In this document: positions 22,480 to 64,000 of the stretch, one piece after another | Layout of the letters: every line of letters begins with the position of its first letter | How positions within the stretch are numbered: position 1 is the stretch's first letter | Source of the DNA: Sipunculus nudus | Taxonomy: Eukaryota; Annelida; Sipuncula; Golfingiida; Sipunculidae | Assembly (NCBI GenBank): GCA_026874595.1 | Contig: CM049317.1 | Location: forward strand, 50,184,401-50,248,400 | Reading direction: 5' to 3' | Length of the DNA: 64,000 nucleotides | Notes under the pieces: model-generated | The model's database searches: none | Seen by the model: the letters and a program-made list of their open reading frames with translations, nothing else | Told to the model about the DNA's origin: nothing | Made by a program: the position numbers and the translations under genes

Positions 22480-23325
22480 AAATTCACTCTAGGGTAAACT
22501 GGAACCACTATACCACCATTACCACCAATATACCCACATCCAGCCTTGGTACCCTGGAAACCATCCCACCACCAATATTTACCCATCCAGCCTGGGTATC
22601 CAAAGCAGTCCCACCACCAACACCCATGTACACACATCCAGCCTTGGTACCCTGGACTCGATTCTACCAACACCCATGTACACACATCCAACCTTGAAAC
22701 CCTTGACCCCATTCCAGCAACCTCATGTACACATATCCAACCTTTGTACCCTGGACCACATTCCACAAACATCCATGATCACACCTCCAGCCTTTGTACC
22801 CTGGACTCCAGTCCATTACCAGTCATGTAATCACACATCCAGCCTTAGTACCCTAGACCCAGTTCCATCAACACCGTGTGCACACAACCAGCCTTGGCAC
22901 CACCACCAGTCATGTTTTCACACATCCAGACCTGGAATCCTGAACCCTATTCCACAAGCACCACCCATATGCATGCATCCAGCACTTGTACCTTGGACCC
23001 TATTCCCCCAACACTACAAATGTGCACACATCCATTCTTGGTACCCTGAACCCCATTCCACCAACACCCATGTACATTCATCCAGCCTTGGTACCCTGGA
23101 CCTAAGTTCACCACCAGTCATGTATTCACACATCCAGACTTGGTACTCTGAACCCAGTTCCACCAACACCCATGTACACACACCCAGCCATGGTACCCTT
23201 GACCAAAATCCACAAGCACCACACATCAAGCACTGGTACCCTGTACTCCATTCACACATCCAGCCTTGTTACTGTGGAACCTATTCCACCATCACCACCC
23301 AGGTACACACATTCAGCATTGATAA
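22480..23325. repeat. ~50-bp minisatellite
   Basis: About 17 diverged units of the pattern ACACATCCAGCCTTGGTACC, then CTGGACCCATTCCACCAACA, then CCCATGTAC. Successive ACACATCCA motifs are 48-51 bp apart (for example 22631 and 22681). Stop codons are rare in the unit, so long frames arise on both strands (225 codons at 22676-23353 on +; 101 and 81 codons on -). The unit length is not a fixed multiple of three and the frame drifts, so I treat these as non-coding. Confidence 0.85.
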
Positions 23326-23869
23326 GATGCATAAATTACCATTTTGTTTATGATGTGCTCATGAGGTAATTTTTTAACATGCTGCAGATTTCAATCTACA
23401 CAAATATGATATTGTACATAATTACAGGTTTTGATTTGCTCATTTTATCATTCTGATCACAAATTACTTATGTCTTCCTTATACATCTTCAAATTCAAGG
23501 TTTCAGTAAAACTGCCTTGAAAAATATAACAAAATTATCTTTGCACAGCCTACTTCTTGAAACAGCAAAATTTTCATCATGCATCACATTTGATAAATAA
23601 ATATGTTACCAACTCAGCAGCCTATATGTATACTTCGGTCCACAATGCACCCAAAGAGGGGTTATGGTTATGCCAAACCAAATTGAATTTTGTACAGTAG
23701 TTTCTTATAAAAAGCTGCTAATGACAACTTGTTTTACTTTAAAAAATATAAAAACAACATGTCTATTTTAAAGCAATTTTTTTAAATATAAAACACTCCA
23801 AATGTCAAAGACTGCTACAGTCATTAACATTCCTGCTTGCTTGATTGCCCCCTCTTACATGTACTTACT

Positions 23870-32599: not shown

Positions 32600-33850
32600 T
32601 CAAGTCAGCTGACTGAAAGTCATATGAGCTTTAGCAATTACTCTTTGACCGTCGTCCGTCTGTACGTCAATCCGTTAACACTAACCTTAACCGCTGGACC
32701 TAGAAATCTCTAACTGAAAACCATGGAGGTCCATAAAAAAAACCTCTGGAAACCTCAACTTAGGTCACTGAGACCTAAATCATCTGAGCTAAGGCGCTCA
32801 TAATTACCCCCCCCCCCCCTCCCGGAATAATTAAAAATATGATATAAAAGCTCCAATATTTGAATAAATAATGCACTGATTGCCATGGTTACTGTGGTTG
32901 GCTTCATATTCGCGAGGCTGAAATTTCGCAATTTTTCAATTTTTAATGTTTCGCGAGGGTTTCATTTTCGCGATCTCACCAGAACCCAAATATTTTGTAA
33001 AGCCATATCTATGTGTGTTATAAAATGAGAATAAGTCATGAGTTTGTGATATTTCTCATATAACGATGGGCCCGAACACAAAGCACAGGTAGTTAAGTTC
33101 AAATTAAGGGGAACGTTTTCCCTATACCTGCATACCTTATTATAACAATTCTCATTGTTCTAATCTATTCCCATACAAATATTGGCTACATTCAATAAGA
33201 AGGACGTAATCCATTGGCCAATTATTCCCGAGGGCGAACAAAAAGGCAACCACAGTATTTCCATTGATCAAATAGTGTTTTAAATTGCTCAAATGGTTTT
33301 TCACCAATTCCTGAAGACTGGTGGCGCCTCCTGTATTTACTCTGATTTTTACGCATTGATTCTCAAATTTTAAGACCTTCAAATGAAGCAGTCTGGACGT
33401 TAATACGGCACAAACCGCCACCAGGAGGCACTAGGAAAATCTATGTTTTGCAATCTACGGGATCAAAAGATGAATCTGAACACCCAGTGGGTCCGACAGT
33501 GCACAAATTGTAAATGCTGGACTCAAAAGCTTCTTTCTGAATACTCATAAGGGTACATTTAAAATCTCCTTAGAAACCTCAAATTAGGTCACTTTGGCTT
33601 AGAGAAGATCTATGGGGCTCAAAAATCCCCCCCCCCACAGAATAATTAAAGATTTAATACAAAAGCTCTAGTATCTAAATAACCAAGGCACTCATTGCCA
33701 TGATTATTTCCATACGTATTGATCATGGAGTGTTTCGTCCTTCCTGAAGACTGGTGGCGCCTTAATGTACATTTTAGGCACTTTTTTCTCTATTTTGAGA
33801 CCTTCAAATGAAGCAGTCCGGACGATAACATGGCACTTTCACACCACTGA
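32600..33850 (+). repeat. Satellite-like array with nuclear-receptor-type palindromes, locus 2
   Basis: Same family as 5131-6400, beginning with the boundary segment CAGCTGACTGAAAGTCATAT and GTCGTCCGTC. It contains AGGTCACTGAGACCT (32762-32776), poly-C runs (32807-32820, 33628-33637) and two longer subunits with CCTGAAGACTGGTGGCGCC (33311-33332 region and 33744-33763 region), as in 5390-5470. It lies inside an intron of lectin copy B. A patch at about 32900-32990 repeats TTCGCGA and TTCGCAA motifs. Confidence 0.8.
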
Positions 33851-35060
33851 AGATGTGAACTTCCCGGTTGTTTTCAGTCAGTCAAAACAACAGGCAGACC
33901 AAACATAAAAACACTCAATGAAAAACTCTTAGACAGTTGTAAGATAACCAAAAAATATAATAAACAATAAATTGGTTACTTACAGATCTCTGGTGGGGAT
34001 GTCATCAGCACAAATATCACACTAATTCCACTGCCGTACGGAGTCCATAATCTGATCCACATTGACAAAGTTAAAATGCTCCAGATCACATGACCTTCGC
34101 TTTCAGGTGACTCTAGACGTTCTGGTGGTCCCTGGCGTAATCCATGTGCACCCGGAGCATAATCCAATCCGAGCGTAATACAGATGGTCACAACAACACA
34201 CAACTGGTTCTTACTGCGGTATAACTGTTAATCTTCCGTAAAACACAATTCGCGTGCCGCACATCGAATGTTCTATGATAGCCCTGAATCAACGGCTCTG
34301 TCAGCTGGTCTACTGTAGCCCTCCAGTTAGCGGATACCGAAGAAACGCACTCTCTAGCGAAATTCAGTACAACACTTTCGCGTCAAGAAAAAGTCCACTC
34401 GACTGTTCCTGGGAGCCCACCATCACAAGATGCCTGTCCTTAGGAATACAATATCACTGTCTCTAAAGTACTTAACATATCTAGTATCAACAAGGTGGCC
34501 TCCCTCAGACGTAGACTGTCAATAACGGCTGACGCGATCGCCCATCTAGACACACAGAAGTCAGCAAACCAACCAGTTTGACCGCTGTAGCACGCTCAGA
34601 TGAACGCTACATTAACGAAGCGCTCCGGCTCTGTCAAGATTACTGGAATTCTCCCCTTATATGAGATCCCTGACGTCACAACTCCAGCTAGACTTCTCCG
34701 CCTATCAGCACTTCCCTCCACGATGTCTCTTGTCAACACAGATTAAATTTAACGCAGACAAGCCCCCAGGGATGATTTCGTGAGAAAACTAACCTAAACA
34801 AATTCGGAGACAAGACGTCGCCTACCAGACACAGTTACTGTGGAGACTGCAATACAAGATTGGGTCTCACGAGTCTATGCTACATTGGAAGGAAGATCAA
34901 ATGATGCAGGTGACACCTACTGATTACTAAACTGCTTTGAAATTTACATTTAATGAAACACGTGTTCTTCCTAACTAGGTTTCTCACGCTAATGGCTAAA
35001 CATGATACTTTATTAAATTAACAAAACTTGCAAAACAATTATTTGGTCATACTGCCTATA
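33851..35060. other. No gene recognised (intron of copy B)
   Basis: Less AT-rich than its surroundings. A minus-strand frame at 33976-34203 (75 codons, with GHVIWSILTLSMWIRLW) and a plus frame at 34254-34466 have no recognised family; the first has a hydrophobic segment but no supporting splice structure. Confidence 0.3.
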
Positions 35061-36110
35061 CCTTAATATACAAAGCCACAGTCATCTGGTGACAGGCACA
35101 AACCATAATCTTTGAACTTTTAAATGAACATCAAGGGAACATTAAGGGAACTCCTAGGCAAATCTTCTCAGAAACCTGAAATTTGGTAATGGTGAACTAT
35201 ATTCTGCTGACAAAAACATGAATGTGAGCACTCAAAGAATCGGACAGGGCACAAATTGTATCCATTTAGCCTGCCATCTTCTATTGGGGCATTCAGGGAG
35301 TTCCTGGGTAAATATCCTTAGAAACAAGAAATTAGGTCACACTGATCTTTATTCAGCGAGCTGTATGAAAAAAAAATAATTTAAGTCAAGATGGGCTCAA
35401 ATTGTATCCGTTAGGCCTAGAATCTTCTAACGCAACATCCAGGGAGTTTCTGGGCACATTTTCTCACAAACCTTAAACAAGGTCGTGATGACCTATATTC
35501 TGCGAGTAACTGGCCAAAAAAATGACTCTGAGCACCACGACAGTTAAAAAGGCAAACATTGTCTCCGTTAGACCTGGAAACTTCCAACCGTACATCAAGA
35601 GAGATCCATGGCAAATCTACTCAGAAGCATGTAATCAGGTCATGTGACCTATTTTCTGCAAGCAACTGGCCAAGAAAATGCTTATGAGCACTAAGACAGT
35701 CAGTCATGGCACCAAACTTTGCTTTTGGACCTAGGACCTTCTAATGGTCCTTGGCAAGTCTCCTTTGAAACTGGCATTTATCCAGCAATCCACAAGTCGT
35801 AACTGTTGGGTATACTAATGTCTTAATTAATTTAGAAGGAGGCCATTCTTATGTCTCCTTTGACCTACAAAATAAGGTCACTGTGAGCTATATTCTATGA
35901 GCTGTGTAAAACAACATGATTTGAGTACGCTATAAGTCAGATGTACACAAGTCATAACAGTTTAACCTAGAAACTTAAAACTTCGTATAGGGAGTTCCCA
36001 GTAAAATCGTCTTGCTGTCACCTATTTAACATCTAAGGACTTTGGGAAAAAAAACATGAATTTGAGCACACTGGAAGTTATCCTACCCATTGTTCAAGGT
36101 TCCTTAACAC
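35061..36110 (+). repeat. Satellite-like array with nuclear-receptor-type palindromes, locus 3
   Basis: Seven or so monomers of the same family, including AGGTCGTGATGACCT (35480-35494) and a shorter-spaced AGGTCATGTGACCT near 35637. Monomers follow the order GGCACAAA, TCCGTTAGACCTGGAA, CTTCTAACGCAACATCCAGG and CTATATTCTGCGAG. Confidence 0.85.
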
Positions 36111-39720: not shown

Positions 39721-40705
39721 AGTTGTTTTAAACAACCTCTTTTATTCACCTGAATACATATACATAACAAAGGAGGAAATCTTAAAACAGGAAAGTTTGT
39801 CGTCATCCTTACGACACCTGTTAGCAACGACTGACTCTAAGTGTCTTTTATATCGAAGAAGAAGATAATATTTGTAATATATGGTTTTACTATCATATCT
39901 TTAACCTCGAAGTTCCTATAGGATCTGCTTGTGTCCATCTTGTTTCATTTAGAAATCCCTAGAGTGCCAGCCTGGAGGACCGTACACGATTGACGAACGA
40001 TACGCTTTATGCGCCTGATCATGGAGGTTTATTCTGACATATCCTTAGTGGAGTTGATTCGTTGTGAAATGACTGAGAAATGACACACAACGATACCACT
40101 TTTTCGAAGAATAATGGTCGTTATTGACATAACGTTGGCCTTGCCACAAACAGCGTAGGTCTGAATAAACTTATATAAGTGACATACCGACAATGCATGT
40201 ATTTCTTATTGATGTTATAATCTGGTGACAAATATTTGTTGTGAACGATGAACAATGAATGCAGTGATTTCCAGAGTGCTTAAATCATGCGTTACCCCAT
40301 AGTCCTAAGGAATATTTTACATCAACCTGATTAGAGATTACTGCAACTGCCTGTACGACAAATTGGATGGTAAAATCATGTTCTCTTACATATCTGAATC
40401 ATATCTATATGATTTGTTCCGTGTTAACGGACAAACGGCCGGACAACAGAGAAAGGCTGATGACTATAGCTCAGATGACTAACAGTTATGTCAGCTAGAA
40501 ACACTATTTACATGAACAATGTATTTTTTACTATTAAGAATGGAATATTGACCTTAAACTCTTTTTATTCATTTACCTCCGAGAATGTTGCATCCTTTAA
40601 AGTAAGTCGCAAATGGTCCATATAGGGTATGATATACGAATGATCGGTCCCTTTTACCCACAAATCATTGATAAAAAATGAATGTCACCGTAAAGTACGA
40701 TATTA

Positions 40706-40710
<5 letters not shown>
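39721..40710. other. No gene recognised
   Basis: AT-rich spacer. At about 40415-40500 an inverted copy of the boundary segment (GGACAAACGGCCGGACAA, then ATAGCTCAGATGACTAACAG) of the satellite family occurs alone. Confidence 0.4.
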
Positions 40711-40792
<82 letters not shown>

Positions 40793-40809
40793 TGTGTGTG
40801 TGTGTGTGT
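40711..40809. repeat. Compound microsatellite (AT)n(AG)n(TG)n
   Basis: Three dinucleotide runs follow directly: AT to about 40754, AG to about 40790, TG to about 40809. Confidence 0.97.
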
Positions 40810-41628
40810 TTGTTTAGTGTTCTACAATAATTATAATAGGCAAAAATGAAAAATATAATTCTAAAGTTAGTCAGGTTTAGATTTTGCTAACAAATAATAA
40901 TTACGTACATTATCTTCAGGTGCTTGAGGCAAATCTAATAGAAATAGCAGGTGTAAATTTCAGAATGTAACTCAAAATGATGTTCAAGAACAAACCTAAA
41001 ATATGACTGAATAGTAATATGTGGCTAGTACGGCAACTAAATTTATAAAGATATTCAAATAAACAAAAATTATGTTCCACATGTCTATATTTTAAGCCTA
41101 AAGCGTTAATATTTGGCTTATTTGCAGTTATTTGAACTTCACATGAATGACAATATATTATGTAATAAAGCTCTGAACTACCCTTACTACATCACTGAAG
41201 CTCTGAGCTTTCCTGTTTACTACATTTATTGCAAAAGCATTGTGTCATCTTAGAGATTAAGCGTTCAGGTCGCAACTTTTAACTGTCGATAAAAATATGG
41301 CCCTTTGGGTTTTTTTTATATAAACACTTGCCGTGTTACTAAACTACACTCCTAACCCTAGTACCCTTAATTTATTACACGGATTACAATATGTATGCTA
41401 CATGATCTAATACTAAATATAGAGTAGGTCATATCAAATTTAGAATGGCAAGAGAATGAATAAACTCCAAAACAAATACATATATCTTCAACGTAGAACT
41501 TTAAAATTTACGGAAATTCTGTATTGGTTCTAAAGCCAAATCAATGCGGAGAGGGACGCAACGTATCAGCTGCAACATTGTTATTTTTCAAATAAGAAGA
41601 AATACTTCTACATGCTTCAGTATTTCGA
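40810..41628. other. No gene recognised
   Basis: AT-rich 3' flank of the coiled-coil gene on the opposite strand. Nothing recognised. Confidence 0.4.
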
Positions 41629-42157
41629 TCAGATCCGATTATATTTCGAGCTAAAATCATTGGTTCTGAAGCGCTGATGGCGGTTTTGCAATCTTTTTTG
41701 TTCCTGTGATTTCTTCATTTCGCTAATCTCCTTCTTTACTCCACTCATGTCACTTCTTAAAGCATTAAGCTCACTTCTGATTTCATCCATCTTTCCCTCG
41801 ACTTCTTCTTCTCTTAGTATGCCTGAGTTGATCACGTTCTTCAACCAATCTGCGATTTTCTTCCACCATCATTTCCACTTGAGTTCGATACTTCATGATT
41901 TCTATGAACTGTTCATGAACAAGCCGATCTTTGTCTGTCATTTTCATATTTATTTCGTCGAGCTCTTTCTGTAACTGTGCGATGGTTTTGCAACGTTCTG
42001 CTAAGGCGCCTCTCGTTATGTCTAGCTTTCCTCGAAGCTCCCTGTTCTCTCGCTGAAGGGTTACTACAGTTCTCAAAATGATGTCACCGTAACGGGTAAG
42101 CTTCCTCAAAGGAGTATCATTGGATGGTCCATCTTCTTGAATGGATAGTTCTTCCAT
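41629..42157 (-). pseudogene. Coiled-coil protein, copy B (one frameshift)
   Basis: A minus-strand gene without visible introns. From ATG at 42155-42157 the frame reads MEELSIQEDGPSND, LRKLTRYGDIILRTVVTLQR and ENRELRGKLDITRG, then a long heptad-rich helix to EENRRLVEERDQL. It is then derailed at the AGAGAAGAAGAAG stretch near 41815, ending RRRSRGKDG. In the next frame the helix goes on: EEEVEGKMDEIRSELNALRS, GVKKEISEMKKSQEQKR, and ends KYNRI at 41629. The joined protein would be about 175 residues and mostly coiled coil, with no signal peptide or membrane segment: a cytoplasmic scaffold or adaptor-like shape, family unknown. The frameshift lies in a repetitive purine run, so a sequencing error is possible. 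A partial duplicate lies at 9987-10115, and both sit downstream of and opposite to a lectin copy. Confidence 0.65.
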
Positions 42158-44149
42158 CTTATCCTTGGTTCTGCTCGTAAAATCAGAAACTTCTTCCTGC
42201 TTCTGAAAAATGCGCCGACTTTTTTTGTATAAATAGCTATGCGACCTACATAGTAGCTCAAGTTAACGCATTTTGTGTGTATCTTCACCGCTACAATAAA
42301 ATGTCTACGCTGAAACCCTTTTAAAGATATCAGGATCACAAATTTAAAAAAAACGGCGGGACGGATTGAAATGCGTGAATGACGATAATAGCCGCCAGCC
42401 AAAATAGCCTGAAGAAAAATTAATTCATGCACTTTTTCTTGAAATCAGTTATAATTTGTAAGGTTATTGTCTATCCTGGATCCATTGTGAGTTCGATGCT
42501 TTTGTTATGACACATCAAACTCCAGCTGGATCGAAGATAGCACGAATGTATATTATAATACTAGTACTGATTTGTGTTCAAACTGCAACACAAATTCCAT
42601 CATTTCTTACTTAAAACTGCATCCAAGTTGTAAAAAGTTCAGTTATAAGAAAACTAACCCTGTGAAATTATATTCCTCTCAGCAGAACCAATCCAATTTT
42701 TAAATTGCTTCCAAGCCGAAAGTTTACCAAGCAGAGAATGACCCAGAATACTTCATTTCCACAGATACCTGGCCTGCTGCCAAATGGGACATGTCAGACG
42801 TATGGCACGTTGACAGACATAAAGGTCTGATCACCATTGGTCTAAATAGTCCGCTTAACATGCAAAGATATCAATGATATGTCCCATACAATTAAGCTTT
42901 TCTAAGAATCAGTGCCCTAGAGAGTAAACATAAACACATAAAAAAGAAATTCCACAGACCACAGCAACCACAATATACACTTGCCTTTCAAGACACACTT
43001 GACTGTGAATAAAGCATCATTAACGCCCTTTTTTGTTCGTGAGCAATATATTTTATATGTATACGCACCTGCTGTACACAGGATTTACGTTCTGACTGTA
43101 ACAGTGAATGTTTTGGCAGGAACTCTTCCCTCTAAAGAATTATGGTTACTGCATGACAAAAGTGTGAGGTCGTTCCTATTTTAACGAGAAAGTGCAGCAC
43201 TATAATGGGAAGTGATATAGACTAATTATCTTCTTTACAGGTATGGTTGCTGATATGAGGTGATAGTGATGATCAAATAGAAATGTAGTAATAATATCAT
43301 ATGAACTGGGATATGTATTATTTTATAACAGTTATTTATCTATCTAATTATTTTTATTTTCATTACTTTTATAGATTTTAATATAGGTCTACTCGGTATG
43401 TGTAATTCGAGAGCATTCATAATTCAACAAATTAAATCCAAGGCCACCGCCGCCAAAAAGACCAAGGGACCACCTGAAATGTATCACACGTGTATACATA
43501 AGATAAGGCATTCAAGAAATAAATCATACTGGGCTGTTGTTATAACAAACAGATTCTAAGGGCCCACACAAGAATGTTTGCATAAGCTATCGTATATAAA
43601 AGATCACATTGAGTGTGTAGTGAGAATTGATATACAGTAGTCATACATGCCCCTTCGTCGTATCTTGGCACTGTTGAGTTCTCTTGTTAGACAAGGATGT
43701 TTGGATATCAGGCGGGCATTCCAAGTAGGGTCAATAAAATGTTTAGTGAGAAATAGTTATTCAGATACGGCCGTGCATGTTTATCTAGTTATCGCACTGG
43801 TTTATAAATTAGCGCTTATGGCGACTGTCTTTATAATAGTGTGTTTGGCATTAATATCGCTAATATCGTAAAAACATATTTAGTATGTTCAATATATATT
43901 TATAATTTAAAATCCAACAAGTGGCACATGAGCCATGCCGCTCAGCTGAATTGAAGAAACCTTGAACAATCACAGGGTAACATGACTCCCAGAGTGCTCA
44001 AAATCATGCATTCTGCCAATAAATATTAGATATAGATTACAGGGACTTTATTCTACATGCATCTGATACCATGTGTGCCAACCTGACTAACAGAATGTTG
44101 AAATAACGTTCTTTCACATAGCTTTCAAAATATGTCTAATGTGAGTGAT
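42158..44149. other. No gene recognised
   Basis: AT-rich. A minus frame continuing above the coiled-coil start (42106-42432) has no domain. A plus frame at 43647-43871 (74 codons, MPLRRILALLSSL then a hydrophobic end VYKLALMATVFIIVCLALIS) could encode one membrane helix, but nothing else supports it. Confidence 0.3.
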
Positions 44150-44308
44150 ACACGACTGTGGGGCACAGCCTTCCCATAAAGCCTGCAGAGCGTTCACTCT
44201 GGGTGGGGGCCGACCGTGAAAAGTCTCACCGCCTTGGCTGAGATTGGAAACAACAGTCTCCCGGTTTTAAGTCCTGCGCTCTACCCCTAAGCCACAGAAG
44301 CCGGCTTA
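44150..44308 (-). mobile_element. tRNA-derived SINE-like sequence
   Basis: Minus-strand reading gives TGGCTTAGGGGTAGAGCGC (polymerase III box A type, 44276-44294) and, about 45 nt on, GTTTCCAATCTCAGCC (degenerate box B, 44236-44251), then a non-tRNA body with TTTATGGGAAGGCTGTGCCC. It abuts the truncated 5' end of the LINE at 44309. Family not identified. Confidence 0.5.
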
Positions 44309-44586
44309 ATTGGAAAGGTTTGTGCTGTGACGATTGTGATGTGTGGTCACATCTGAAATGCCTACCTGACGTGACACTTGATCGCTACTGTGAACTACAG
44401 GAATATGATGAGTATTTGGTATGTCACAAACGCATTTTGCCAAATTTTAATGACTCATGTTTTAAAACTGACAGTAAAGCAGTTGAACCCGATCTTGAGC
44501 TGTCATTCAACCATATCACGTCCTGTGTGGAGGAACAAAGTTGTGATGATGGGAACCTGACTCTCAAAGATGTCAGACTAAAGTAT
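44309..44586 (+). pseudogene. LINE open reading frame, PHD-finger and linker part
   Basis: The frame reads KGLCCDDCDVWSHLKCL, the C-x2-C...H-x2-C part of a PHD-type zinc finger found ahead of the endonuclease in many molluscan CR1/Jockey-like LINEs. A linker follows, then SLKDVRLKY. The first cysteine pair of the finger is missing because the element is cut at the SINE border. The reading meets TAG at 44587, where the 4-kb inverted-repeat element is inserted. The LINE resumes at 48631 with PNNFVAGYLNINGLRN. In related LINEs the sequence RLKYPNN...LNIN is continuous, which supports the junction. Confidence 0.75.
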
Positions 44587-44699
44587 TAGTCCTGGGGCTG
44601 AGGGGGGTCCTGTGTGCAATCATATGTCCCCTAAATTTGACTTCTGATCCAGGTAGGACACCCTTATCGGAGTAAAAAAAACTTGGGTAGACATCCTGG

Positions 44700-45990
44700 A
44701 TCGTGGGCAGAAAGGGTGGAATTCAAGATGGCGTCCAAGATGGTCGTAGAACCATTGAATCATATATACTCGAAAAGTAATTGAGGTAGGGGAATGATTT
44801 TGGTGTCTTTTCCTATGTTTTCAGGTCAAAGAATCTATTGAAACCATTTCCATGACAATAACGTATTTGGTTTCGGTGGTATTCAATATGGCTGCCAATA
44901 TTGCCGCCGTACCATAAAATCATACATAACTCAAAAAGAAGTTGAGGTAGGGGAATGATTCTGGTGTCTTTGCCTATGTTTTCAATGTCAAGGAATCTAT
45001 TGAAACCATTTCCAAGACAATACCATTTTTGATTACGGTTAAATTCAATATGGCTGCCAATATGGCCGCCGTACCATAAAATCATACATAACTCAAAAAG
45101 CAATTGAAGTAAGGGAATGATTTTGGTGTCTTTGCCTATGTTTTCAAGGTCAAAGAATCTATTGAACCCATTTCCGAGACAATACCGTGCTTGTTTACAC
45201 TAGATTCAATATCGCTGTCAATATGGCCGCCGTACCATAAAATCATACATAATTCAAAAAGTAATTGAGGTAAGGGAATGATTGGCTTTGCCTTTGTCTC
45301 AATATGGCTGCCAAAATGGCCGCTGTACCATTGAATTGCATAAGACAAGCCAAGGAATCAAGGTAGGGGGTATATGTTGGTATTATCGTCTATGTTTTAG
45401 GGCCCAGGAGTCTCTTTTAATTATTTCAAAACTATACTGTTATTGGTTAAGGGGATATTTAATATGGCTGCAAAGAGAGCAACCAATGAACCATTGGATC
45501 ATGTATAACAATCCAAGGAATTAAAGTAGGGGTTGATATTTTAATGTCTTTAACTATGTTTACAGGGTCAAATAATCTATTTAAACCCTTTTTCAAGACA
45601 GTACTGGATTTGGTTATCGTGATATTCATTATGGCTGCCATTACAGCCACTGTACCATTGCACCATGTCTGACTATCCAAGGAATTAAGGTAGGGGATGA
45701 TATTTCGATGTCTTGCCTATGTTTTAAGGGTTAAAGGATCTATTGAAACTATTTTAAAGAATATACGGTATTGGGTTATGGTAAAACTCAACATGATTAT
45801 CATTATGGCTACCAATATAGCAGCTGCACAATTGAATCATGAGTAACTCACTAAAGAATCGAGAAAAGAATGATTTTGTTGTCTTTTGTTAAATTTTCAA
45901 TGGTAAAAAACGACCATTATCATCATCAGGCCGGTATCTTTTCAGGCTAAAGTGGAATTCAATATGGCTCCGGCCATGTCATTGAATCAT
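44700..45990 (+). repeat. Left-arm ~160-bp tandem units
   Basis: The motif ATGGCTGCCAATATGGCCGC or a variant starts at 44888, 45050, 45211, 45303, 45463, 45631, 45805 and about 45963, mostly 158-174 bp apart. Each unit continues with ACCATAAAATCATACATAAC, GAGGTAGGGGAATGATT and TTTTCAAGGTCAAAGAATCT. The first motif is degenerate (AAGATGGCGTCCAAGATGG near 44727). Confidence 0.9.
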
Positions 45991-46039
45991 CCAAAATTCA
46001 CCAAGGAATGCAGCTTGGTGATTGATTTGGGGGTCTACA

Positions 46040-46425
46040 AGGTCAAGTTATCTCTTGAAATTATTTGGTCGATAAAGTATATTGTAGACAATTGCTTTAT
46101 TGTTGTTGCTTTGGTACAGTGGTCCAAATTCGCTAGTAACGCCATTTCCAGTCAAGACATGAATGGCTGGAAGAACATAAATATAAGCTGGCCGACTCTT
46201 CTGTCGGATCATGAATTGGAATATACCTCGTTTTTGTCTCCAGTTCTCCCTCTGAGCCACAGTTCATTAAGTCCACTTGACACAAACAGATGTGAAAAGC
46301 ACAATACAAGTACAATCACATCTGTTTTACCAGCTATGATAAGGATCTGTTTCAGCTCATTTCCTACCCCAAAAGAGGACAAGAGGAATGATTGGGACAT
46401 CCGCCTCTTCATGATCAGAGACTAA
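46040..46425 (-). pseudogene. Mobile-element-type protein remnant in the 4-kb element core
   Basis: Minus-strand peptides in three frames line up in order: HEEADVPII, then GKTDVIVLVLCFSHLF and GLNELWLR, then GDKTRYIPIHD (junction of two frames), then YVLPAIHVLTGNGVTSEFG. From memory, widespread unnamed proteins of cnidarians, molluscs and fish carry the series EEADT, DTDVxVL, LW..TG, RYIPxH and LPAxHALTGCDTTS in this spacing. Catalytic function is not known to me, and I do not assign one. At least two frameshifts and several stops make this copy dead. The 157-codon plus-strand frame over the same DNA (45952-46425) is a shadow. Confidence 0.55.
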
Positions 46426-46859
46426 TGCAGGATGATGTGTGAGCGATCCATATTCTGACCGACTTTGTCTTAAGGGAAATATTAACCAACCTGCACTATT
46501 CTAGTGTAAAAAATATTTCACAGTTTAATTTTATTATTTGATGATGGAGAGAAACTGTCCAGATCCATTACTTGTTTGGTGTCCAGAGAAATATTGCTAA
46601 CAAAAACAGGAGTTTTCAATGTTGTTGTTCAAAATGAAACTTATACGTTGTGCAATTTGACACATATCCGAGCACAAAGCCCAGGAACTGTTCTAATAGT
46701 TCCCTAAAGATGGTAACACTGATTTTTTATTAATAATGTCATGACACCAACAACCCAGCCTGTTGGCATATGCGATTGTTCCACTGGCAGAACATCTTTT
46801 GCTCTGGATTTGTCACAAGTTCTGTCATTTTTCATGTTTGTTGTTCTTTTAGCTCAGCA

Positions 46860-47660
46860 GACTGTACGTCATTTGCCTAGGCAATTGACCTTAAAAACAA
46901 GAAATTAGGACACTGTGATTTATATTCTACCGGCTATAGGAACAACAAAAAAAGTTATTTGTGCACCCTGAATGTCAGATTGGCACTTATAGTATCTAAT
47001 AGGCCCAGAATCCTCTAATGCAACATGGGAGCTTCTGGAAAAATCTTCACGGAAATCTAAAGTTAATTCATCGTGACATATATTCTGCAAGCTACATGGC
47101 TAAAAGATGATCTTGAACACCCAGACAGTCTGACTGGGTTCAAATTGTGTCTGTAAACCCTAGAATATTTTAACCTGACATCCAGGGAAGTTCTGGGCAA
47201 ATCTCCTTTGAAACCTGAAATTAGGTTCTGATATAACATCCATGTCGAATCCCTTAACTAGATCACTGTAATCTTAATGGTGTGAGCTAAAGGAAACGCA
47301 TGAGTTTTACAGTGAAAGTCAGATTGGTACAAATAATTACAGTTTGACCTAGAATCTTCTCACATAAAATTTTAGGTCCACCCTAAATCCCCATCAACAA
47401 TTGAAACTGGGTCATGGTGATCTGTATTTTGTGAGCTACAAGCAGCAAATCTAATTTTGAGCACCCAGCAAGTCAGACAGGGCATATGTTTGATATGAAA
47501 AAAATGTCTTAGCTAAAGTAAAGGGAGGTCATTGTAATGTCTCCTTGTACATAAAAAAATAAAGTCAATGGGACATATGTTCTCCAAGACTTGTGAAAGA
47601 ACATGATTTGAGCACACAATATGTTAGATGTACATGAGTTTTAGCAGTTATCAAAGAAAC
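46860..47660 (+). repeat. Satellite-like array with nuclear-receptor-type motifs, locus 4
   Basis: Same family as 5131-6400 (boundary TTAGCTCAGCAGACTG, then monomers with CTCTAATGCAACATGG, AAATTAGG, ATATTCTGCAAGCTA and CAGTCTGACTGGG). Palindromes are degraded here, for example AGGACACTGTGATTT. It lies in the core of the 4-kb transposon, so the family travels at least partly within mobile DNA. Confidence 0.8.
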
Positions 47661-47699
47661 TTATATTGGCAGCTAATGTAAACTAACACCAAAACCAAA

Positions 47700-48540
47700 A
47701 AAAAAAAAATTTCTTGAAAATAATTTTCAAGAATCCAGGACATTGAAAACATACGCAACGATACCAAACTGAATCCCCAACCTTAATTCCTTGGCTTATC
47801 AGACATGACTCAACTGTTAAGAAGCCATAATTGCAGCAATATTGAACACACCATAACCAAATACTGTATTGTCTTGGAGTTGGTTTCAGTATATTCTTTG
47901 ACCCTGACAACAGGGAAAAAGATACCAAAATCAAACCCCTACCTCTATTCCATGGAGTGTCATACATGTTCAAATGTACAATGGCCATATTGACAGCCAT
48001 ATTAAATATCCCCAGAATCAAAACAGTATAGTATTGAAGATAATTTAAATAGTCTCCTGGGCCCTGAAAAACATAGACGATAACACCAAAATCAACCCCC
48101 TGCCTTGATTCCTTGGCTTGTCATTTGCGTTTCAATGGAACAGCGGCCATATTGGCAGCCATATTGAATATCACCGTAACCAAATACCGTACTGTCTTGG
48201 AAATGTTTTCAATAGATTTCTTGACCCTTAAAAGATAGGCAAAGACACCAAAATCATTCCTCTACCTCAGATACTTTTCGGGTTCGGTATGATTTTATGG
48301 TACGGCGGCCATATTGGCAGCCATATTGAATATCTTCGAAACCAAATACTGTATTGTCTTGTAAATGGTTTCAATAGATTCCTTGACCCTGAAAATATAG
48401 GCAAAGACACCAGAATCAATCCCCTATCCCAATAACTTTCCGAGTTATGTATGATTCAATGGTTCGGCGGCCATCTTGAACGCCATCTTGAATTTCACCC
48501 TTTTTGCCCGCGATCCAGGATGTCTACCCAAGTTTTTTTT
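47700..48540 (-). repeat. Right-arm ~160-bp tandem units (inverted)
   Basis: GCGGCCATATTGGCAGCCAT and variants near 47983, 48143, 48304 and 48466 form the mirror image of the left-arm units, with TAGGCAAAGACACCAAAATC and GAATCAATCCCCTA blocks between. Confidence 0.9.
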
Positions 48541-48627
48541 TACTACTCTAAAGGTGTCCTACCTGGATCAGAAGTCAAAATTAGGGGACATACGATTGCA
48601 CACAGGACCCCCTCAGCCCCCGGACTA

Positions 48628-50117
48628 TATCCTAACAATTTCGTAGCTGGATATCTGAACATAAATGGTCTTAGGAATATAATTAATTCACTGACAGATA
48701 TACTATCGCCCTGTAATCTGGATCTGCTATGTATAGCTGAAACAAAATTAGATGCATCGTTCAATCTGCTTGGGCATAGACTCTTCAGGAGAGACAACTC
48801 AAGCAATGTTGGTGGACTACTGCTTTATGTAAGGAGTGATCTGCCGTGTAGGGTGCTTACAGACTTAACTTTTAACCACATTGAAAGTATACCATTTGAG
48901 CTTACAATACAAAAGAGGAAATCGACCATCCTGTGTAGCTACTAATCACCAAGTGTGTCACAACGAAACTTTTTTTGATGATCTTACATTTATTTTAGAC
49001 AGACTATTTCTAATACTTGAACATGTACTAGAAATTGGTGTCTTGAATTTTAATCTTTCACAAGGGAATGGTAAGACTGCATTACATGATTTATGTGATG
49101 TTTATGCTTTAACAAATTTAGTTGATTAACCAATGTTTTATCATAAAACATTACTCGCTTGTTGATGTGATACTTACGAATCATAAATCCAGTTTTCTTC
49201 ATCCTGGAACCATGAATACTCATATCAGTGATGGGCACATGGTGGCGTATACTGCGATGAGATACCAGCAAAGACTGACTTCTATTGCAGTTTAAACTTT
49301 TAATGGAAGAGACTTTCTTGTAGATCTACAACATGCACCCATGCGTGTATCAGAAGTGTTCACTGATGTTGACGATAGCTTCTGGGTGATATCTCAGCCA
49401 CTACATTTGGATACCCATGCACCCATTAAGAAAGCCATGAAGGTTAAACATAAGCCTTTTATGAACAGTACTCTTAGGAAAACCATACTTAACAAGAGGC
49501 GACTCTGGAAGCGCTACAAGAAATATCTATCTCCCAATACTTGGAAGCGTACAGTTCTTAGTGACTATACGAAAATACTCTATTAAAGATTATTTTAAGG
49601 GTTAAAAGAGAAATTGGGCCCCAAAAAGTAGAATTCTGACCTACAATCAAACTTTTATGACAAACAAAGGAGCTTAAAATGGATTAAAATGTTCCTACTG
49701 TTGTGACTAACCCTAAAAACGTATCTGACATTATGAACAATTTTTACATAAATATAGCTGCCCACATTGGAGCAGATTTAGTGTACTTGAATATGATTAT
49801 TATGTCAAAGGTTTTTTAGATCAGTCAATCTCACATATTAGTAACTACCTGAGCATAGATGTGAGTGAAATGACGTTATGGTCTCATATATCACACATAA
49901 TGACGTGTTTGGAGCTATTAACAACCTAGATTCTAAGAAAGCCACCGGTTATGATGGCCTGTCTGCTAAGGTTCTTAAGACTGCCAATCCTATTGTGCAT
50001 ATTCCACTTACTATTTTGTCAAATGACTGCATTAGAAGTTGTGTCTTTCCTAATTTGATGAAATATGCAAATGTCACACCGGTTTTTAAAAAGGATAAGA
50101 CTCTTATAAAGTACTAG
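48628..50117 (+). pseudogene. LINE endonuclease and N-terminal RT part
   Basis: Continues the LINE after the 4-kb insertion. PNNFVAGYLNINGLRN, LDLLCIAETKLDASF and RRDNSSNVGGLLLYVRSDLP are the apurinic-type endonuclease start (N-I-N, AETKL, GG..LYVR). The homologous frame then shifts several times and loses much of the catalytic end. A linker follows (49341-49586: HAPIKKAMKVKHKPFMNSTL, then KRRLWKRYKK). The first RT block is at 49878-50117 (INNLDSKKATGYDGLSAKVL and ANVTPVFKKDK). In-frame stops and missing pieces show it cannot be translated intact. An insertion interrupts it at about 50117. Confidence 0.8.
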
Positions 50118-51293
50118 CTGATAGACATGGTACACCGGGCTTATTACCGGGGTTTGGGAGATTTATTAACTGAGATGTGAAATGTTGGCTCATTTTTTTT
50201 TTCATTCTTTAAGTTAACAGAAAATATAGGTTTTCAGTGGGAAACTGTCTCCATAAGATATGTATAAACATTTTGGCACGACTGCAGAATAACGCACGAA
50301 CCTCTCTGAGGCACAACACTCCTGTGAACAGAAAACGTTTCTATGTACAGCTGTTTGTATCTTAATTTTGCCACTTACTTTTAAATTACATGAATCCTTA
50401 ACATCATACTGTCCGTCCGTATAAACTCATAATCTGGTGGAGACAGTGCGTGAGTGATCCTGCAGTCGCACCAATATTTTAAACAATTATTTTGTGGTTC
50501 TGTCCTCGTTGCAAGAAATTTATACCCCGGTATGTTTACCTCGATGACCTGGCCAGTGATGGTGTTGACATTGCGAACCGGAATGAGACGCGGGGGCATT
50601 CAGGTTTTCGATGATATATGAATGGATTCTATCGGTGGACGTATAATGATTAGGTTGATGTGAGGAACACATGGAAGATTTATTAAATGTACCTTGCAAG
50701 GAAACTGTTCCTGAAGAAAGAAACAGAAATATGAATACCTCGTAAGTAGCAGTAGCGGACCCAACGGGACTCAATGCAGAGGGTCCGTATTCATTTTCAA
50801 CCGCCGCAATGTTTTTTTTTTCATCGTATCAGACAAATTTTGAGGCCTGAAACCCCAGACACCTCTCCACCCACCCAACCCCACACATGTTCCTGAAATT
50901 GGGACCTTGAAATAGGTTTTGTCATTAATCCTCCTGGGTTGAACTCTCTATTTCATAAAGCGAGCAACATGTGTTTTTCTCTTATATACTGACCACGCAC
51001 GTGGGTCAAATCCCTCATTGAAAGCAAGCGTTATTCATATGAACAATAGTCCTGATAGTGTTAGGGGTTAAGTGACCACAATGCACGCATTCCGGTGATT
51101 GCCGAAGGCAGTTCGGCTGTGCTCGGTAAAATAACGGGAAAATCACTCAAAATTATATGTATATTAAAAATTATTTATTTTCATATCGCCTATGTCACTG
51201 CGGGGATAATAACCTTTAAAATGATGTATGGCACAATATTGTACACAGCGCGGTTTTAGAGAACATTGCGAACAAACGTGAACTGAGTTCCTT
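50118..51293. mobile_element. ~1.18-kb insertion inside the LINE RT
   Basis: Separates FKKDKTLIKY from the continuing NYRPVSILT-type block. It is flanked by similar 13-14 bp sequences, TTATAAAGTACTAG (50104-50117) and TTATAAGTATTAG (51294-51306), which I take as a diverged target duplication. No inverted ends were seen, so a retroposed sequence is more likely than a cut-and-paste element. Minus-strand frames at 50381-50599 (RLIPVRNVNTITGQVIEVNI, then PGYKFLATRTEPQ) and 50520-50774 are unrecognised. Confidence 0.5.
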
Positions 51294-52460
51294 TTATAAG
51301 TATTAGATAAAGAAAAACTGAAGTCCGGTCAGTATCTTGACTTCTATTTCAAAGGTTTGTGAAAAACTGATAGGAAATCAGCTGGAAACATTTCACAATC
51401 AAATATTCCCCCCATTTATTTCTGCATTCAGAAAGAAACATTGTTGCAAGTCTGTCCTCCTGCGACTTACGGAGGAGTGGTGACAGGCACTTGACAGAGG
51501 CAGTTACATCGGCACTGTACTGATGGACTTGTCAAAGGCGTTTGACTTTGTGCCTTTTTCACTTCTAATTGGAAAGCTAAATGCATATGGTATGCACTAC
51601 AGTGCTATACAGATATTAGGAAGGACGTTCCTAAGGGCCCAGTTCTAGGGCCAGCCCAATTTAACATTTTTATAAATAACATATATGGTTTCATTAAACT
51701 TGCTGATTTGGCAAATTATGCCGATGATAATACTATTTCTTTCATTGATCACAGCATAGCAAAAGTCCGACAATACTCACTTATGAATGTAAAATAGCTA
51801 TAGAATGGTTCCAGATCAATTTAATGGAAGCTAATCCTGATATATTCTAGGTAATGCTTCTTTCTAAATCCAAGTATCCAGTGATTTCAGTATCAACATT
51901 AACAATGCCACCTTTAACAGTGAGGCTTGTGTTAAACTACTTGGTATTAACAAAGATAAAAATATGAATTTTAAATTTCATGTAATTCATTTTTGTATAA
52001 AGATTGCAAGGCAACTTGGTACTTTATACAGAATACATCGCATCCTAGATGGAAATGCTAAACTAAGAATTGTACGGTCTTTTATACAATCAAAGTTTAA
52101 TTATTGCTCAATCAATTGGCATTTCGTTGGACAGAAACTTACATTCAAGATGGAGCGCATCTTAAAACGGGCAGTACGCCTGATTGACGGAGACTTGAAT
52201 ACTGACTCCTCTGAGCTCTCTCATAAATACAATTTTGATAACATAGAACTACAAAGACTTAAGACTATAGTAATTCGAACATGAAAATATAATCTTTCCC
52301 TAGTATATCTTCGAAACTTTTACCAAGAAGTGTCTACACCATACAACACTCGACAAAATCAGATCATAAATTATCTCTAGTGAAAACTACAAATTATGGT
52401 CTAAATTCATTTAAACACTTCTCTAGTCAAATTTGGAACTGTCTTTCGTCTTAATACCAT
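51294..52460 (+). pseudogene. LINE reverse transcriptase and C-terminal part
   Basis: Reads SPVSILTSISKVCEKLIGNQ, FPPFISAFRKKHCCKSVLLR, GTVLMDLSKAFDFVP (palm motif with its Asp), LGPAQFNIFINNIYGF and NYADDNTISF (the YxDD box, near 51717-51728). The thumb-like frame at 51964-52284 follows (ARQLGTLYRIHRILDGNAKL, SKFNYCSINWHF, ERILKRAVRLI), and the C-terminal block TTNYGLNSFKHFSSQIWNCL ends near 52455. These are hallmarks of CR1/Jockey-group LINEs. Several stops and frameshifts are present. A poly-A or microsatellite tail was not obvious. Confidence 0.8.
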
Positions 52461-55869: not shown

Positions 55870-57140
55870 TATTCCGTTCATTTTAGTTATCAGAAAGGGT
55901 ACACTTTCATCAAGATCCCTAACGCCCCCTTTTTGGGCGGATAATTTGACAAAAGTTGTCTTTGAGAATCTAGAAAGAAAATCAGCGATCAGGCTGTGGC
56001 GGCCATATTGGAATTCAGACAGGTCTGTTATTAATAGGTCTAGAGCCCTCATAGGTACCAATCATCCCTGTGAATTTGGAAAAGCTGAAGTAAGTTGTTG
56101 TTGAGTTATCGCACGCAAAATAAAATTAGCGATATTGCTGTGGCGGCCATATTGGAATTTCGACAGGTCTGCAATTCAAAAGGTCTGGAGCCCTCATTGG
56201 TACCAACCACCCCTGTGAATTTGGGAAAGCTGCAGTATGTTATTGTTGAGTTATCACGCGCGAAAGGAAATCAGGGATTGGGCTGTGGAGGCCTTATGGT
56301 TTTCCAACAAGCCTGTATTTCGATAGGTCTGGAGCTGTCCTAGGGTACCAAACACCCTTGTGAAATTGGGAAAGCTGCAGTATGTTGTTGTTGAGTTATT
56401 GCGTGCGAAAGAAAATCGGCGATTGGGCTATGGCGGCCATACTGGAATTCCGACAGGTCTGCAATTCACAAGGTCTGGAGCCCTCATTGGTACCGACCAC
56501 CCATGTGAATTTGGGAAAGCTGCAGTATGTTGTTGTTGAGTTATTGCGTGCGAAAGAAAATCGGCGATTGGGCTATGGCGGCCATACTGGAATTCCGACA
56601 GGTCTGCAATTCAAAAGGTCTGGAGCCCTCATTGGTACCAACCACCCCTGTCAATTTGGGAAAGCTGCAGTATGTTATTGTTGAATTATTACGCGCGAAA
56701 GGAAATCAGGGATTGGGCTGTGGAGGCCTTATGGTTTTCCAACAAGCCTGTATTTCGATAGGTCTGGAGCTGTCCTAGGGTACCAAACACCCTTGTGAAA
56801 TTGGGAAAGCTGCAGTATGTTGTTGTTGAGTTATTGCGTGCGAAAGAAAATCGGCGATTGGGCTGTGGCGGCCATATTGGAATTCCAACATGTTTGAAAT
56901 TCGATAGATCTGGAGCCGACATAGGTACCAATCATCCCTGTGTATTTGGGAAAACTGCAGTATGTTGTTGTGGAGTTATTGCGTGCGAAAGAAAATCAGC
57001 GATTGGGCTGTGGCGGCCATACTGAAATTCCGACATGTCTGTTATTCGAAAGGTCTGGAGCCCTCATAGGTACCAATCATCCCTGTGAATTTTGGAAAGC
57101 TGCAGTATGTTTTTGTTCAGTTATCGCGCGCGAAAGAGTG
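55870..57140 (+). repeat. 145-bp satellite array
   Basis: The anchor AAAGCTG(C/A)AG starts at 56081, 56226, 56371, 56516, 56661, 56806, 56951 and 57096: exactly 145 bp each time. Units read GGTACCAACCACCCCTGTGA, ATTTGGGAAAGCTGCAGTAT, GTTGTTGTTGAGTTATTGCG, then GGCGGCCATATTGGAATTCC. A variant unit (GGAGGCCTTATGGTTTTCC) precedes the anchors at 56371 and 56806, giving a three-unit (435-bp) super-repeat that is nearly identical. Open frames of 70-100 codons follow the array and are not genes. Confidence 0.95.
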
Positions 57141-58054
57141 TATCAATGACGGAAGGACGGAAGTGCGGAAGGACGGACACGTTGATCACTATAGGGCACC
57201 GCTTGACAAGCGGGGCCCTAATTACATGTACACGTCATTGTGTCTTACCCATGGCAACTCTAAGTTTCACGCAAGAGGGTATAATAGCTGTGTTTACTCT
57301 TTGGCGATGATCAGGCGACTGGGACTCTTATCTTTATCCTAAATGAATTAAAATTTTTTTCTCTAAGGTTTATTTCCTTTTATGTTCCCATTCATAGAAA
57401 ATAACCGGGATAAATTTACTGGATAAAGTTAGATCGTAAGATGTTTTCGAGAAAAATGGGTAAAATAATGATAAAATAATAATTAAATTATATACTTATG
57501 ACGTATGTTAATAATCCCCCCCCCCCAAAAAAAAAAAAAAGAAATGTGTTTTTTATTGTGTGCATAGGATATGTCGAATAAATACATATCATTATTTGCA
57601 AATTCGAATTAATTATTTATTATAAATTAATTTAACAAGGCCTACAGGCCTAATGCGAACCTGTTCAAAGTTAGGGAGTATGAATGGAGGATTATTTTTA
57701 AAATTTAATATTGATCCTCTTATGTCCTGCATATCTACCTTAGAATTATGATTTCAACATAATGGATGTTTCGGACCTGCAAGTTTCGGACTAGGATATT
57801 TTAAAACTAGAACACGGGAAGTCGACAAGCGACTACGTCTCCGCCGAAATCAGAGTGGGACGGGCGAACTGAGTCATGGATTGAGTGGAAAGGGGAAATA
57901 GAGTGAGGAGTGTTGCATATCAGCATGGATGTCTGCAGCCGAAATGTGTATGTAGGTTGCGCCACCTACCACAAAATCAGAAAGCTGTCCAAGTTGTATA
58001 CATATGCATAATTTTAGGCAAATAAGTCAAACCACTACTTGTATATGAGTGATT
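57141..58054. other. Array boundary and unassigned DNA
   Basis: The 145-bp array ends in GACGGAAGGACGGAAGTGCG, GATCACTATAGGGCACCGC and GCGGGGCCC, a boundary type often seen beside such satellites. Poly-C/poly-A runs at about 57517-57541. Nothing coding. Confidence 0.4.
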
Positions 58055-59390
58055 TTACCCACAGCAGACAAACAGAAGGACGCTGTGCAAAAATGTTGGC
58101 AGGTGGTGCCACCATTTTTGTATATGATTATGAGCTATATGTGATCTATACATATACAAAACTTCAGGGGGATATGTCAACCAGTCCAGAGATATAAGCC
58201 TGAATGTCTGCAGTGAAAACATAAAAATAGGTAGCGCCACCTGCCACATAATCGAGAAAGCTATCCAAGGTGTATAAACATGCAACATTTCAGGCAGATA
58301 TGTCAAACCACTGCCGACATATGGGTGACTTTATCCCACGGCAGACAAACAGATGGACGCTGTACAAAAATGATTGAAGGTGGCGCCACCAGTTTTGCGT
58401 ATGATAAAGAGCTATGTGAGATATATACACTTGCAAAACTTTGGCCAAATCGGTCAAACGGTTTCCGAGATATGAGCTTGGATGTCTGCAGCGTAAACGT
58501 GAATGTAGGTGGCGCCACCTGTCATAAAATCAAGAAAGCTGTCCAGGATGTATAAACCTGCAAAATTTTAGGCAGATATGTCTAACCACTGCCGAGATAT
58601 GAGTAATTTTATCCAATAGCAGACAAACAGACGGACGCTGTGCAAAATTGTTGGCAGGTGGCGCCACCAGTTTTGCATATGATAAGGAGCTATGTGAGAT
58701 CTATACACTTGAAAAACTTTGGCCCAATCGGTCGAACAGTTCCCTAGATATGAGTTTTGATGTCTGCAGCGTAACCGTGAATGAAGGTGGCGCCATCTGT
58801 CCTAAAATCAAGAAAGCTGTTTAGGATGTATAAACCTGCAAAATTGCAGGTGGATAAGTCAAACCACTGCCGAAATATGAGGGATTTTATCCCAAGGCAG
58901 ATGGAGAGATGGATGCTGTGAAAAAAATGGTTTCAGGTGGCGCCACCAGTTTTGCCTATGATAAAGAGCTTTGTGAGATCTATTAACATGCAAAATTTTG
59001 GCCAAATCGGTCAAACGGTTTCCTAGATATGAGCTTGGATGTCTACAGCGTAAACATGAATGAAGATGGCGCCACCTGTCATACAATCAAGAAAGCTATC
59101 TAGGATGTATAAACCTGCAAAATTGCAGGTGGATAAGTCCAACCATTGCCGAGATATGAGTGATTTTATCCCAAGGCAGATAAACAGATGGACGCTGTGC
59201 TGAAATGGTTGCAGGTGGCGCCACCTTTTATAGTGTATGTTATAAAGCTATCCAAGGGCTACATTTTTAGCCTGATTGGTCAAACGGTTCCCGAGATATG
59301 TTGGTTTATGTGTGGAAATAAACGCACAAATGGACGCTGGGCAGAGAGGACAGTACAGAGGTCAACCAAAAATGAGGGCGCAGCAGTTCA
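58055..59390 (+). repeat. Dimeric ~278-bp satellite with GGTGGCGCCACC palindromes
   Basis: Palindromes (perfect or one or two bases off) start at 58102, 58230, 58379, 58508, 58657, 58786, 58936, 59065 and 59214. Spacings alternate 128, 149, 129, 149, 129, 150, 129, 149. Half-units read TTTTGCGTATGATAAAGAGC, CCGAGATATGAGCTTGGATG and CTGCAGCGTAAACGTGAATG, alternating with AATCAAGAAAGCTGTCCAGG, CAGATATGTCAAACCACTGC and ACGGCAGACAAACAGATGGA. Frames across it are not genes. Confidence 0.95.
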
Positions 59391-63189: not shown

Positions 63190-64000
63190 TTGAGAAATAA
63201 GCTCATTTATCATAAAAGCTCTGTGCCCACTGTGCCTTCAGAAGTTGAAGGAGTTTTGCCCAAGACCTCCTTGAATTTTAAGTAGGAAGGTTCCAGGTTC
63301 AACCGTTATGATTTGTGCCCCTTTGACTTTCACAGTACTAAAATCATGTTTTTTTTCCTATAGCTCACAGAATATTTGTTACATTACACCTTATTTCAAG
63401 ATCAAATGAGACTTGCCAAGGATCTCCCTGAATTTTACATTAGAAAGTTCTAGATCCAACAGTTAAGTTTTGTACCTTTTGCCACTCTCTGGCTACTTAG
63501 AATCATATTGTTTGCCAGTAGCTCATAGATTATGACCTAATTTCAGATCTCCAAGGATAATTTTCAAAGATTTCCCTGAAAATATATGGTAGATGATTCT
63601 AAGGAAAATTAATACACTTTGTAACCTTTCTGTCGAGTGCTAAAAATAATGTTTTTGGTCCGATGCACGCAGAATATAGGCCACAATGAACTAATGCCAG
63701 GTTTCCAAGGAGATTAAACTAGAAACTCCCTTGATGTTGAATTTGAGCACTTAGATTCTAGGCCTAACGTATACCTTTATACCCATCTGACATTCAGAGT
63801 ACTCATATGACATCTTTTCCTATTTGTCATAGAATGTTAAGTGAAAAGATTCTAGGCCTAGCGGATACACGTCTACTGTCTAGCTGCTCCAAATCATGTT
63901 TTCGACCCGTAGGTCGCAGAATATAGGTCAGAATGATCTCATTTCAGGTTTCCACGGAGATTTTGCCAGAACCTCTCTGGATTCAGCGACATTAGATTCT
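63190..64000 (-). repeat. Satellite-like array with nuclear-receptor-type motifs, locus 5 (inverted)
   Basis: Reverse-strand monomers of the family at 5131-6400: here CCTCCTTGAATTTTAAGTAG, AGGTTCCAGGTTCAACCGTT, TAGCTCACAGAATATTTGTT and GATCTCATTTCAGGTTTCCA. It runs off the right edge, so its length is unknown. Confidence 0.85.

Follow-up and report, generated by a model that had tools for sequence, protein, structure and literature searches.

What has split the reading frame of an old long interspersed nuclear element (LINE) in the genome of Sipunculus nudus, and to which kind of mobile DNA does the intruder belong? The LINE lies in a window of 64,000 nucleotides of contig CM049317.1 (assembly GCA_026874595.1), i.e. 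C12:50184401-50248400 of a 1.43-Gb assembly with 153 contigs, and is interrupted by an element of 4041 bp with the ends TAGTCC...GGACTA. Three features of a non-autonomous terminal inverted repeat (TIR) DNA transposon, namely inverted ends, a target-site duplication of fixed length and the lack of a transposase frame, are present in this element and in the relatives that were read. Very probably, it belongs to a family of such transposons that is moved in trans by a transposase with a 3-bp stagger.

The element occupies positions 44587-48627 of the window and is flanked on both sides by TAT (44584-44586 and 48628-48630). Its junctions, read directly from the sequence, are ...AAG TAT/TAGTCCTGGGG...CCCCCGGACTA/TAT CCT AAC AAT.... 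A preliminary description of the window had reported a 4041-bp element that splits the LINE frame with one TAT duplicated. Length and duplication hold, its span of 44584-48634 including both TATs and four LINE bases in addition. The same description called the ends exact inverses of each other, which is correct for the outermost 6 bp only; base 7 is T at one end and G at the other. Its claim that both boundaries are fixed to the base is independently established by an empty LINE site and by the 3-bp duplications that flank 31 of the 33 copies in which both ends were read; it had proposed to look for both.

The empty site was found with the right LINE flank (48631-49230) as query, which gave nine matches from eight scored candidates. 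These comprise the window itself, a duplicate on C12 and two rows that represent one place on C13; the other five do not reach back beyond query position 207 and are uninformative on the junction. The place on C13 (C13:69365584.., L033/L036; L numbers denote genomic places that were read) possesses one TAT and no insert, with 84% identity over 142 bases spanning the junction. The proteins read across it are LKDVRLKY-LKYFRAGYLNINGLRN on C13 and LKDVRLKY-PNNFVAGYLNINGLRN in the window, and the window frame is open on each side of the element.

The sole other element-bearing LINE copy found is located on C12, 106.6 kb upstream, with the element at the same TAT. This region (C12:50118000-50127500, L009) is 99.55% identical to window positions 40210-49712 over the whole 9.5 kb. 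Since the second LINE copy sits in so similar a duplicate, the element in both copies represents one insertion event; rather than from a second insertion, the C12 pair stems from a segmental duplication or from haplotypes that the assembly retained twice. Thus, the single case of another LINE copy containing the segment, which the preliminary description had named as a possible refutation, is a duplicate of the same insertion. A piece outside this region, window 35139-35540, is matched at C12:50112919 and C12:50340917, and a third copy of that piece thereby lies 121.4 kb downstream.

The element belongs to a family that numbers dozens of copies or more in this genome. A search with the full element gives at least 274 matches (39 of 3483 candidates scored), and its 31-base terminus is found with up to two mismatches at 138 places (66 forward, 72 reverse), the reversed control giving 0 and 0. 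Twenty places with family sequence were cut out, of which 17 are two-ended and form, with the window copy, a set of 18 copies. A perfect 3-bp duplication is present in all 18, as well as in 11 of 13 further end pairs. Two more were recognised by eye: a 10-kb copy (C1:12964264-12974316) with TTA/TTA and one end mutated to CAATCC, and C3:60290326-60290678 (L052) with ATG/ATG and mutated ends. Overall, 31 of 33 two-ended copies carry the duplication, against a chance expectation of about 1 in 64, and no 4-bp duplication occurs among the 18 copies or the 13 further end pairs. Copies with different termini would have spoken against the boundaries as first described; the copies read share their termini, allowing point changes.

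The duplicated triplets are varied. In the 29 tallied duplications (18 + 11), 17 of the 32 strand-collapsed triplets occur; TAC is seen twice among the 18 copies, and TAA/TTA accounts for 2/29, or 3/31 counting the duplications outside the tally, including that of the 10-kb copy. Outside the duplications there is a weak symmetric lean (C left, G right, T/A further out) in numbers too small to rely on. Twelve newly sampled termini, taken from 41 matches, all lead into family sequence, 11 into the interior and L052 into terminal sequence only. L052 is a copy of about 0.3 kb that consists almost wholly of terminal sequence, a derivative of the family resembling a miniature inverted-repeat transposable element.

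Each arm of the element is composed of an outer domain, some 130 bp long, followed by 162-bp direct repeats. From its tips, the element forms an imperfect inverted repeat of 494 bp at 88% (gapped alignment), within which two ungapped in-register inverted blocks, 79 and 95 bp long, reach 92%. The tip-aligned inverted repeat ranges from 180 to 985 bp across the 18 copies. A 19-base marker of the 162-bp unit (up to four mismatches) matches 3-13 times forward and 2-10 times reverse per copy, mostly in unequal numbers within a copy; the window element has six forward matches, degenerate copies included. The interior is common to the copies, with deletions and insertions: the window copy is without some 540 bp that L010 and others carry at position ~1480-2020. 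The 18 copies differ by 3.6-5.6% from their own majority consensus (Kimura two-parameter distance 0.037-0.058), values that are slightly low because the consensus was built from the same copies and to which no clock was applied. A single main phase of spread is suggested by this range.

None of the 18 two-ended copies contains an open frame of more than 193 amino acids (aa), splicing left aside, nor does their consensus, in which the two longest frames cross the repeat arrays and the next longest (140 aa) is interior. The 10-kb copy on C1 has no frame longer than 149 aa. The 172-aa frame at 45907-46425 of the window was considered as a coding interior and rejected, its only match (DurN, E-value 0.085) being read as chance. 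Some copies are longer than the window element. In L028 the extra length is an expansion of the 162-bp repeats; the extra DNA in L011 (~2.7 kb), L020 (~1.6 kb) and the C1 copy (~4.9 kb) holds no frame of more than 160 aa and probably consists of other repeats that inserted into the element.

The following mechanism would account for these features. A transposase supplied in trans would recognise termini of the form TAGTCCnGGGGCTGA-GGGG, perhaps together with sites repeated in the 162-bp arrays; it would excise the element and insert it into almost any target at a cut staggered by 3 bp, and repair of the gaps would leave the 3-bp duplication. Here, the target would have been TAT inside the old LINE, and the empty allele of the C12 locus would be expected to read AAGTATCCTAAC. 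DDE-type transposases join both element ends across a staggered target cut, and since such joining would account for the fixed inverted ends, the constant duplication of 3 bp and the clean empty site, we infer cut-and-paste of the DDE type. Mobilisation would be in trans because no copy among those read is coding. A role of the 162-bp repeats as extra transposase-binding sites may be considered by analogy, as internal repeats have been proposed to act in this way in Galileo and Tetris, according to the excerpts of PMC3573991 and PMC4079207.

Several observations weigh against this reading. Two copies lack a perfect duplication: C6:69011568 has TTA/ACT, with the last base changed (GGACTG), and C8:18117957 has TAA/TAC, one base differing. 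The set of 18 leaves out the C12 duplicate as well as L012 and L017, which have one end within the slice. The 12 newly sampled terminus slices are at most 2.5 kb long and do not cover whole elements; in one of them, L046, the family match ends after 1329 bases, beyond which a reverse-transcriptase-like frame of 176 aa (recognised by eye) is either nested or external. Neither a transposase with these ends nor an autonomous copy was found in the searches for Zator-type, XPG_I and DDE_Tnp_4 domains, in the longer copies or at the 12 termini, so the cut-and-paste chemistry is read from anatomy.

A chimeric assembly, or a segment that normally belongs to the LINE, is hardly credible as an explanation. 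The element-bearing duplicate on C12 does not speak against such an origin; the empty LINE site refutes it, as do the copies of the element at many unrelated loci, flanked by 3-bp duplications of their own. Helitrons and other rolling-circle elements are ruled out by the inverted ends and the 3-bp duplications. Retroposition is ruled out on the inverted ends alone, poly-A not having been looked for. CACTA/EnSpm elements have the termini CACTA/CACTG, and the ends TAGTCC exclude that group. PIF/Harbinger elements duplicate TWA and end in GGG/GAG. A derivation from this superfamily is disfavoured and very unlikely: it would agree with the duplication length, and of 701 first-look candidates for the corresponding transposase domain, DDE_Tnp_4, 150 were scored as matches, but TAA/TTA makes up just two of the 29 tallied duplications, GGG/GAG ends are not seen, and none of these 150 places comes closer than 41 kb to the termini that were compared (100 of 138).

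Among the known superfamilies, two others are possible, though each is rather doubtful. The family might represent deletion-derived, non-coding offspring of a Zator transposon, a superfamily with 3-bp duplications according to the excerpt of PMC10045372, as in the present family. The genome does yield one match to an ISAzo13/Zator-type transposase, its frame open over 261 aa (C7:75738369-75738902, L038; wider L039, L040), which lies within a 35-bp inverted repeat about 7.5 kb apart and apparently flanked by TAA. However, this match is the sole one in the genome, it has different ends (GGCCATCC...), and within about 9 kb of it family sequence occurs only at chance level (E-value 0.67). Academ, in its AcademX lineage, is about as doubtful a source. 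Its nuclease is of the XPG type. XPG_I, searched as a proxy in place of the Academ transposase itself, has five matches in the genome, with no convincing family match in ~1.5 kb on each side; the best (17 bases, E-value 0.012, L084) is taken as chance. The 3-bp duplication falls within the 3 or 4 bp given for AcademX in the excerpt of PMC10045372, but duplications of 4 bp are not seen here. An amplification of Academ in bivalves, mentioned in the excerpt of PMC10294476, would be relevant only if the host were a bivalve.

FB elements have target-site duplications within 7-10 bp. The arms of the present element are foldback-like, with variable internal tandem repeats, yet by duplication length the family is not in the described foldback families. 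Tetris, a foldback element of Drosophila virilis, is likewise non-coding and, in the excerpt of PMC4079207, likewise without an autonomous partner found, but has duplications of 8-10 bp instead of 3 bp and was placed in Mutator by its authors; this comparison is by description only. Galileo, a foldback-like element, shares long terminal repeats and internal direct repeats that are unequal between the arms of one copy, and differs in its 7-bp duplications and in a known transposase that places it in the P superfamily (excerpt of PMC3573991). IS3EU/GingerRoot elements likewise terminate in TA...TA, but usually duplicate 6 bp according to the excerpt of PMC10045372, whereas duplications here are of 3 bp, with no match at a fourth base in the 18 copies or the 13 further pairs. 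In the open-licence PubMed Central literature on mollusc foldback elements with 3-bp duplications, 3-bp superfamilies, bivalve repeats of 162 bp with inverted ends, Academ and TAGTCC, the family was not recognised from titles and abstract openings; the string TAGTCC is absent from the ten best of 611 records listed for it.

Foldback arms, TA...TA ends and a 3-bp stagger are thus not seen together in the known groups compared here. There is a slim chance that this family represents the visible portion of a transposase superfamily yet to be described, with foldback-style arms, TA...TA ends, a 3-bp stagger and almost no target preference. For the non-autonomous TIR transposon family as read above, fixed ends, duplication length and copy sites are now given, and these are usable for finding its transposase. 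The locus itself is a clean nested insertion at base level with an independent empty site, and the combination of foldback-type arms with a 3-bp duplication is consistent with repeated origins of arm tandem repeats in superfamilies that are not related to each other. Apart from these points, the biology is that of an ordinary transposon.

Table 1. Coordinates of the element, its parts and the interrupted LINE (position 1 is the first base of the window; TRF, Tandem Repeats Finder).
Feature	Position	Strand	Basis
Host LINE, 5' of insertion, PHD-like finger, frame end ...LKDVRLKY	44242..44586	+	open frame, Pfam
Left target-site duplication, TAT	44584..44586	+	read directly; C13 empty site (L036) has single TAT
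Whole element, 4041 bp, TAGTCC...GGACTA	44587..48627	+ (orientation arbitrary)	read directly, compared with other copies
Left arm, outer non-array domain of terminal inverted repeat	44587..44719	+	in-register blocks 92% complementary to right end
Left arm, 162-bp direct-repeat array	44720..45283	+	3.5 copies by TRF
Non-coding interior, common to other copies	45284..47743	+	copy comparison; longest frame 172 aa
Interior part akin to ~150-bp dispersed repeat of window and genome	46889..47663	+	sequence similarity
Right arm, 162-bp direct-repeat array	47744..48499	-	4.2 copies by TRF
Right arm, outer non-array domain of terminal inverted repeat	48500..48627	-	inverted match to left end
Right target-site duplication, TAT	48628..48630	+	read directly
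Host LINE, 3' of insertion, endonuclease-like, frame start PNNFVAGYLNINGLRN	48631..48942	+	open frame, Pfam
Host LINE, remnants of reverse transcriptase and C-terminal part, in broken frames	51322..52281	+	RVT_1 fragments, open frame

The domain matches of the host LINE are all under the curated cut-offs of Pfam. The left piece shows a weak PHD-finger match (E-value 0.011), the right piece an Exo_endo_phos match (E-value 4.6e-5), and three RVT_1 fragments follow at 51322-51480, 51484-51645 and 51546-51794 (E-values 0.035 to 0.00036). The frame at 51868-52281 has no Pfam match and was assigned to the LINE by eye. The same LINE is apparently broken again at 50115-51322, where its reverse-transcriptase frame breaks off after ...VFKKDKTLIKY (near 50114) and continues with SPVSILTSISKVCEKL at 51322; this second break is about 1.2 kb long and shows no obvious inverted repeat at either end.

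The window contains further repeats. One of them, diverged and about 150 bp long, to which part of the element interior is similar, is present at 5540-5705, 33442-35977 and 63274-63982. It is very common genome-wide, a 402-base probe having given 3476 first-look candidates, of which 40 were scored. Tandem arrays are located at 55973-57137, 57917-59225 and 22513-23353, with periods of 145, 278 and ~50 bp, respectively. The unit of the 145-bp array includes GGCGGCCATA, which resembles part of the 162-bp unit of the element.

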